From: Prochlorococcus sp. AG-402-G06
Lineage (GTDB): Bacteria > Cyanobacteriota > Cyanobacteriia > PCC-6307 > Cyanobiaceae
Direction: 5' to 3'
Assembly: GCA_003277985.1 (NCBI GenBank)
Contig: QCHR01000001.1
Location: 62,001-126,000, forward strand
DNA length: 64,000 bases
The notes under the pieces are model-generated. The model worked only from the letters and a program-made list of their open reading frames with translations, had not been told where the DNA came from and searched no databases. Shown piece by piece: positions 48,545-50,143 of this stretch (the stretch's first letter is position 1; every line of letters starts with the position of its first letter). The position numbers were made by a program, and so were the translations under genes.

Positions 48545-49471
48545 ATGGAAGCAATCACATCTAATTTCCCTCACGGAGAGGGCAGAACCTGTGTAATCAC
48601 AAGGCGAGCTTGTTTTAGCGCAAGCCACCTTTATAGGCTTCCTGAATTATCTGATGATGATAATTCAGCTTTGTTTGGCCCATGCTCAATAGCTCCTGGC
48701 CACGGACATAATTACGAGTTAATCGTAACCATGGAAGGAGATCTTAATAAATATGGCATGGTCTTAAACCTTTCAGATGTAAAACATGCCATAAAAAATG
48801 AAGTAACAAGTCAGCTTGATTTTCGTTTTTTAAATGACACATGGCCTGAGTTTGACCTTTCTAAACCCGAAGGTTGCTTACCCACAACTGAAAGTTTAGT
48901 TCGTATTATATGGGAGCGCCTTAAATCTCACTTACCCCTAAAATCTCTTCGTCTTTACGAAAACCCAAAACTCTGGGCTGACTATCAAGGAAATGCTATG
49001 GATGCTTATTTAACAGTTCAAACACACTTTTCAGCGGCTCATCGCTTAGCTAGAGAAGACCTACCTCAAACCGAAAACGAAAAAATATTCGGAAAATGTG
49101 CTCGACCAAATGGACATGGTCACAATTACTTGGTAGATATAACTGTCAAAGGAAAGATTAATCCTAGAACCGGAATGATATGTGATTTATCTGCATTAAA
49201 TAGTTTAATAAATGATTTAGTTGTAGAACCTTTTGATCATACCTTTTTAAATAAAGACATTCCTTATTTTGCAAATTGTGTACCTACAGCTGAAAATATT
49301 GCATTACACATTTCAGATAAATTAACTAATCCGATTAATGCGATTGGCGCTAACTTATATAAGATTAAACTACAGGAGAGTCCTAATAATGCCGCTGAAG
49401 TTTATGCAAACGTACCTGAATCAATGATCGATACTAAAGACTCAAAGAATCAGGTTGGTTTGCTGAGATAA
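48545..49471 (+). CDS. Tandem 6-pyruvoyl-tetrahydropterin/6-carboxytetrahydropterin synthase
   Basis: 308 residues carrying two PTPS/QueD domains (about 15-150 and 155-290). Domain 2 has Zn ligands His166, His191 and His193 (FSAAHRL, NGHGHNY), Cys185 and the Asp231-His232 pair (FDHTFLN). Domain 1 keeps the Zn histidines His28, His53 and His55 and Cys47, but reads LDFRFLN, so His of the catalytic Asp-His pair is Phe93. It could serve pterin or queuosine-type synthesis. Followed with no gap by a RibD-like reductase gene. Confidence 0.88.
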   Translation: MEAITSNFPHGEGRTCVITRRACFSASHLYRLPELSDDDNSALFGPCSIAPGHGHNYELIVTMEGDLNKYGMVLNLSDVKHAIKNEVTSQLDFRFLNDTWPEFDLSKPEGCLPTTESLVRIIWERLKSHLPLKSLRLYENPKLWADYQGNAMDAYLTVQTHFSAAHRLAREDLPQTENEKIFGKCARPNGHGHNYLVDITVKGKINPRTGMICDLSALNSLINDLVVEPFDHTFLNKDIPYFANCVPTAENIALHISDKLTNPINAIGANLYKIKLQESPNNAAEVYANVPESMIDTKDSKNQVGLLR

Positions 49472-50143
49472 TTGAAAAAAAAATGGGTTAAATTAGTTTT
49501 AGCTTCTAGTATTGATGGACGTATCGCATATCCAGAAGGAGGGAAAACAGAATTAGGTCAGTCTGGTGATCGTTTAGTTTTAGAAGAAGCACTTGCTTGG
49601 TCAGATGGGATTTTAATGGGAGGACAAACACTGAGAGACCATCAATCAATTTGTGTAATTAAAAATAAAAGCTTACTAAAAAAAAGAACTTCAGAAGGCA
49701 AGAACGAACAACCAATTGCTCTTATAGCCAGCAATCAAATAGATTTTCCAGGAAATTGGCTTTTTTTTCAACAACCTCTTCAAAAATGGTTGATCCAAAT
49801 GCAAGATAAGAACAATGAGATTATGCTTCCTAACGGATTCGATAAAAAAATAAATTTAAAAATCACGTGGCGTGATTCTCTTGATGATTTATATCAAAAA
49901 GGAATTGCGAAAGTTGTATTACTTGGAGGTACAAATCTTATTTCAGCTTTTCTTTTAGAGAATCTAATAGATGAATTACAAATCACCATTACACCTCATC
50001 TTATAGGAGGAGATTACTGCTGGGTTTCATCTAAATTAAGGAACTTAAGTACAATAATGAATAAAAAAAATAACTGGATTCTAAAAGAAAGTAAAAAGCT
50101 AGGGAATAACGAATTACTTATTAGATATTTTAGAAATCATTAA
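49472..50143 (+). CDS. RibD C-terminal-like (dihydrofolate reductase superfamily) reductase
   Basis: 223 residues, TTG start immediately after the PTPS stop. VKLVLASSIDGRIAYPEG at the N-terminus, DGILMGGQTLRDHQ, and KVVLLGGTNLISAFLLENLIDELQITITPHLIGG are the RibD_C pattern. No deaminase domain is present, so this is not a bifunctional RibD. Substrate may be a riboflavin-pathway pyrimidine or a pterin; tight coupling to PTPS favours a pterin, as inference. Confidence 0.85.
   Translation: MKKKWVKLVLASSIDGRIAYPEGGKTELGQSGDRLVLEEALAWSDGILMGGQTLRDHQSICVIKNKSLLKKRTSEGKNEQPIALIASNQIDFPGNWLFFQQPLQKWLIQMQDKNNEIMLPNGFDKKINLKITWRDSLDDLYQKGIAKVVLLGGTNLISAFLLENLIDELQITITPHLIGGDYCWVSSKLRNLSTIMNKKNNWILKESKKLGNNELLIRYFRNH

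Follow-up and report, generated by a model that had tools for sequence, protein, structure and literature searches.

A tandem PTPS gene in Prochlorococcus

The window analysed here, a stretch of 64,000 nucleotides from contig QCHR01000001.1 of Prochlorococcus sp. AG-402-G06, carries on its forward strand an intact open reading frame for a protein of 308 amino acids, with a second gene beginning at the base after its stop codon. The Pfam PTPS model PF01242 matched the product of the first gene twice (206.6 bits, E = 1.1e-61), in agreement with the preliminary description of this DNA, which had reported tandem PTPS domains and had the reading frame, the coordinates and all residue numbers correct. 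An AlphaFold model of the protein (pLDDT 89, pTM 0.84) supports the presence of two folded PTPS domains. Orthologues were found in 137 of the 151 genomes of the same family, and in all 94 of its high-quality genomes. Among named genomes, the nearest matches were single-cell genomes of Prochlorococcus, with 97-99% identity. The genes and domains are as follows:

48545..49471, + strand: bimodular PTPS-II (6-pyruvoyl-tetrahydropterin synthase) gene, 308 aa, ATG to TAA, intact open reading frame
48590..48994, + strand: domain 1, predicted pseudo-catalytic PTPS domain of the DF type, residues 16-150; second PF01242 match and placement in the N clade of the trees
48998..49414, + strand: domain 2, predicted catalytic PTPS domain of the DH type, residues 152-290; PF01242 match
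49472..50143, + strand: RibD_C-only reductase gene, TTG start at the base after the PTPS stop; PF01872, 84.2 bits

Active-site residues of the two domains

When the two halves of the protein were aligned with each other, the Zn-binding histidines fell in the same columns (H28/H166, H53/H191 and H55/H193), as did two glutamates (E116/E250 and E139/E278) and the catalytic positions (C47/C185, D92/D231 and F93/H232). This alignment confirmed that domain 2 has Cys185, Asp231 and His232 together with the Zn histidines, and that domain 1 has the Zn histidines and Cys47 but Asp92-Phe93 where the Asp-His pair would be, both as originally described. Human PTPS matched domain 2 with an E-value of 8e-34, and its triad, Zn ligands and glutamates were all the same. 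The residues considered below lie at the following positions:

48626..48628, + strand: His28, Zn ligand of domain 1, from the half-versus-half alignment
48683..48685, + strand: Cys47 of domain 1, codon TGC, fixed in picocyanobacteria and present in 29 of 65 sequences in the rest of the class
48701-48703, + strand: His53, Zn ligand of domain 1, from the half-versus-half alignment
48707-48709, + strand: His55, Zn ligand of domain 1, from the half-versus-half alignment
48818..48823, + strand: Asp92-Phe93 of domain 1, codons GAT TTT, at the positions of the catalytic Asp-His pair
49097..49099, + strand: Cys185, catalytic Cys of domain 2, kept in 167 of 167 sequences
49235..49240, + strand: Asp231-His232, catalytic pair of domain 2, kept in 167 of 167 sequences

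Relationship to known PTPS and T-fold enzymes

Dual-domain PTPS proteins of cyanobacteria have been published: Kong et al. (2006, FEBS Lett, PMID 16920111), as cited in PMC3546692 and PMC5041015, dealt with PTPS of "single or dual domain" in biopterin synthesis. PMC5041015 credits the PTPS-II of Synechococcus PCC 7942 with canonical PTPS activity in vitro, and relates that cofactor synthesis in that strain was unaffected by deletion of PTPS-I. Judged by its sequence, the window protein is an ordinary member of this known bimodular cyanobacterial PTPS-II. It shares with the Synechococcus sp. PCC 7942 protein the two fused PTPS domains, the PTPS-II motif and a coexisting PTPS-I homologue, and no difference in kind emerged between the two. 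The CxxxxxHGH signature, given in PMC5041015 as the motif rule for PTPS-II, is found in both domains (CSIAPGHGH and CARPNGHGH), and the combination of a Cys-Asp-His triad with three Zn histidines, expected of a PTPS-II in at least one domain, is present in domain 2 of all 167 sequences compared. By analogy with its Synechococcus PCC 7942 relative, the one protein for which this activity is published, the window protein is predicted to make 6-pyruvoyl-tetrahydropterin from dihydroneopterin triphosphate on the way to biopterin-type pterins.

Mammalian PTPS (1b66/1gtq and 3i2b) has one domain per chain and forms a hexamer of identical subunits without a pseudo-domain, although the model is 43% identical to human PTPS over one domain. 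QueD (PTPS-I) has the same fold as the window protein but a CxxxHGH motif, whereas five residues separate the Cys from HGH in both domains here. The NCBIfam QueD model TIGR03367 scored 121.9 on the whole protein against a cut-off of 89.25, probably by summing the two domains; despite this match, the CxxxxxHGH motif rules out a QueD identity, and an automatic annotation as QueD, although to be expected, would be wrong. A PTPS-III enzyme of the folate branch, or a FolB substitute, was also rejected, since there is no Glu at the ExxHGH position and FolB was separately present in 11 of the 11 complete genomes tested. Uricase and GTP cyclohydrolase IB likewise have two T-fold domains per chain, and Foldseek aligned them over approximately 300 columns, but with a TM-score of approximately 0.40 and an rmsd of approximately 8 Å, no better than one-domain matches, and their chemistry differs. 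These tandem T-fold enzymes form barrels with more T-folds per ring.

Conservation across the class

The preliminary description had proposed checking whether Phe93 is fixed, and took His in most orthologues as the sign of a strain mutation. Among 112 orthologues of the same family this column held Phe in 109, Tyr in 3 and His in none; Cys47 was present in all 112 and Asp92 in 104. The comparison was then made with 165 distinct domain 1 sequences from class Cyanobacteriia, 100 from the same family and 65 from the rest of the class. Phe was found in 98 and Tyr in 2 of the family sequences; elsewhere in the class the column held Phe (45), Tyr (10), Gly (4), Asn (2) and single occurrences of other residues. 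His was found in none of the 165, so the substitution is not a strain mutation. A sequencing error can be dismissed along with it, and nothing was found in favour of either. With Phe93 in the window protein and the triad His missing throughout the class, domain 1 is not a catalytically complete PTPS domain.

The other pocket residues of domain 1 varied to different degrees. Asp92 was less fixed (92 Asp, 7 Asn and 1 Ala among the 100 family sequences; 41 Asp and 21 Asn among the other 65). The Cys was present in 100 of 100 distinct family sequences and in 29 of 65 elsewhere, where many different residues replaced it; Cys47 is thus firmly retained in picocyanobacteria only. Glu116 was found in 165 of 165 and Glu139 in 161 of 165 sequences. 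On these alignments, the feature general to the class is the loss of the His rather than of the whole pocket. The triad of domain 2 was intact in 167 of 167 sequences across the class, and outside the picocyanobacteria its Cys was present in 66 of 66. Tandem PTPS reading frames of approximately 285-345 aa occurred in most sampled families of the class.

Some lineages depart from the common plan. In family f19 (L115, L130, L215 and L216) domain 1 is without all three Zn histidines, the Cys and the catalytic His, and the fusion and the domain 2 triad are still present. Family f32 (L159 and L209-L214) has triple-PTPS proteins of 430-439 aa, with a DF-type domain 1, a middle domain with an intact triad and QueD-like CxxxHGH spacing (CTRTHGH, CTQTHGH), and then a normal domain 2. 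In several triple-domain proteins domain 1 is short of one Zn ligand. As Zn ligands of domain 1 have been lost in some lineages, Zn binding is not universally needed there. Family f22 (L152 and L167) has an additional stand-alone PTPS of 171 aa, of the domain 2 type with an intact triad, in the same genomes as the double protein.

Selection on domain 1

By the Nei-Gojobori method, dN/dS between the window gene and its relatives was 0.03-0.15 in domain 1; in domain 2 it was 0.02-0.07. Domains 1 and 2 had the same mean identity class-wide (0.675 and 0.677, respectively), and within the family domain 1 changed somewhat faster (0.746 versus 0.790). By these measures domain 1 is under purifying selection, maintained rather than decaying. 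The original suggestion for domain 1, a structural or regulatory role or a changed reaction, is upheld by this selection and by the His absent class-wide, the Cys lost in approximately half of the sequences outside the picocyanobacteria, and Zn ligands and pocket glutamates that are mostly kept.

These data bear differently on the roles that domain 1 might have. It could be a pure scaffold that completes the hexamer, its Zn and pterin residues being leftovers that stabilise the fold, and both the somewhat faster divergence within the family and the lineages that keep the fusion without domain 1 Zn ligands would fit. We nevertheless regard this as doubtful, because the class-wide divergence rates of the two domains are equal and both pocket glutamates are invariant or nearly so, which exceeds the needs of a scaffold alone. 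Nor does a purely structural role explain why Cys47 is fixed in picocyanobacteria. A changed reaction in domain 1, for example of the retro-aldol or carboxy-pterin type, using Cys, Zn and Glu without the His, appears improbable: outside the picocyanobacteria about half of the domain 1 sequences are without the Cys and have various residues instead, which leaves no other catalytic residue conserved throughout the class. The presence of FolB, and of a separate QueD-like PTPS, also speaks against it. Glu116, Glu139 and the Zn ligands are nonetheless retained in most sequences, and small active-site changes have made new reactions in this family, PTPS-III being the example described in PMC5041015.

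Origin of domain 1

All 55 domain 1 rows came out as a single clade (SH-aLRT 100) in a tree built from 120 domains. A phylum-wide search found two genomes from a different class (G340 and G353, family f46) with two adjacent PTPS reading frames in overlapping frames, followed by a gene for a short-chain dehydrogenase/reductase (SDR):

L207:2797-4522 and L208:3116-4756: consecutive genes for an unfused DF-PTPS, an unfused DH-PTPS and a sepiapterin-reductase-like SDR, in the two genomes that are not of class Cyanobacteriia

The first reading frame of the pair has the Cys, the Zn histidines, the Glu and an Asp-Phe (RYDFKHLNFD in both genomes), and the second has Asp-His (RLDHQFIG/RLDHQFIA). The DF proteins joined the cyanobacterial domain 1 clade with support of 100/94, and still with 99/94 when the columns in the region of the trait were removed and the proteins re-aligned. 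Six columns split the DF and DH proteins in the same way as domains 1 and 2 (I18/L156, Y30/L168, F44/Y182, N75/D214, F93/H232 and L143/N282); several of the domain 1 states at these columns are shared with human PTPS, and hence not all are derived. The DH proteins were not firmly grouped with domain 2 (AU p = 0.087 against such a grouping). The pair was present in just 2 of the 18 genomes examined of that class, both of them draft bins with contamination of 3% and 7%. For the G340 SDR, the second-best match in the PDB was the Chlorobium sepiapterin reductase 2bd0 (E = 5e-39); given the size of the SDR family, this likeness is supporting evidence rather than proof.

Because the unfused DF protein groups with domain 1, the Phe-type partner appears to predate the fusion. 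The simplest reading is that a duplication ahead of the fusion gave rise to it and that the Cyanobacteriia have the pair in fused form; domain 1 has the look of a long-standing, dedicated helper and not of a copy that was damaged. Nothing was found on the absence of the domain 1 His or on an unfused DF/DH pair in the literature searched, although Kong et al. 2006 may mention the former. Against that literature, novelty is confined to this history of domain 1, the dual-domain enzyme being already published.

Proposed working and ring arrangement

Taken together, the window protein is probably a bimodular PTPS-II in which domain 2 is catalytic and its pseudo-catalytic partner, domain 1, is ancient and was encoded by a separate gene before fusion. 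Domain 1 would have begun as a separate protein encoded beside the active one, the two being fused before the cyanobacterial class diversified. Domain 2 would perform the chemistry, and domain 1 would in most lineages keep the set of residues that holds Zn and pterin (three His and two Glu) without the acid-base step.

PTPS is a dimer of trimers with its Zn sites between three monomers (PMC7546909), and the triad is intersubunit according to the title of Burgisser 1995, cited there. Residues that build a working site of this kind should not vary. In the window protein the only invariant triad residues are Cys185, Asp231 and His232, and with an intersubunit triad domain 2 would have domain 2 as its neighbour. 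The Cys is reportedly contributed by one subunit and the Asp-His pair by the neighbouring one. Pairing of domain 2 with domain 2 is thus the most likely arrangement on the conservation pattern, and it argues against N-C pairs sharing one ring. The initial proposal had been that the two domains are paired in one ring; it is not supported, since PTPS rings are trimeric and the domain 2 Cys and His are kept in 167 of 167 sequences while the domain 1 Cys is variable.

A more specific version of the one-ring arrangement would build a mixed active site from Cys47, Zn and Glu of domain 1 and Asp231-His232 of a neighbouring domain 2. That PTPS triads form between subunits, that neither Cys47 nor the Zn ligands vary among picocyanobacteria, and that the Cys is also present in the unfused DF proteins all speak for it. 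Such a site, however, predicts an invariant domain 1 Cys and a drifting domain 2 Cys, and outside the picocyanobacteria the reverse was found (29 of 65 against 66 of 66); N-C pairs, moreover, cannot tile a ring of three. We therefore consider a mixed site quite unlikely.

With domain 2 paired to domain 2, three chains would give one ring of three domain 2 units and one of three domain 1 units, and stacking of the C ring on the N ring would reach six domains, the normal PTPS count. Domain 1 may then serve as an assembly partner or as a pterin-binding regulatory ring that provides feedback. We tentatively propose a fused two-component enzyme, in which an active PTPS is joined to a pseudo-PTPS dedicated to it that would bind pterin and govern assembly or feedback, this Phe-for-His partner being older than the class; this is possible, but we would not yet favour it. 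If true, the Phe-for-His partner could yield a heteromeric PTPS, so far undescribed.

Bimodular PTPS-II has been known since 2006, and the texts searched do not account for its having two domains. The absence of the His across the class, together with a pre-fusion pair split in the same way, makes the part played by a pseudo-enzyme partner, where active sites are intersubunit, a question that can be tested. According to PMC3546692, pteridine glycosides are abundant in cyanobacteria and their function is unclear, and control of the PTPS step is therefore of some general interest.

Gene neighbourhood and other pterin genes

The plasmid and phage collections searched yielded QueD-like single domains or no match. 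The window's own genome has one further PTPS, a separate QueD-like reading frame of 163 aa (CRYVHGY). The sepiapterin reductase model TIGR01500 reached its cut-off in no genome, and a sepiapterin reductase gene was not identified in the window's genome. RibD_C matches accompanied 109 of the 110 family loci, and at 90 loci the match lay on the same strand, at most 300 bp downstream. Elsewhere in the class a single locus had it downstream (L128, 511 bp away), so that it says little about the enzyme class-wide; RibD_C was accordingly rejected as a conserved operon partner that would reveal function. The RibD_C-only reductase could, from its sequence, be a candidate pterin reductase or DHFR-like enzyme, and a second RibD_C-only copy of approximately 220-240 aa was present in most complete genomes tested.
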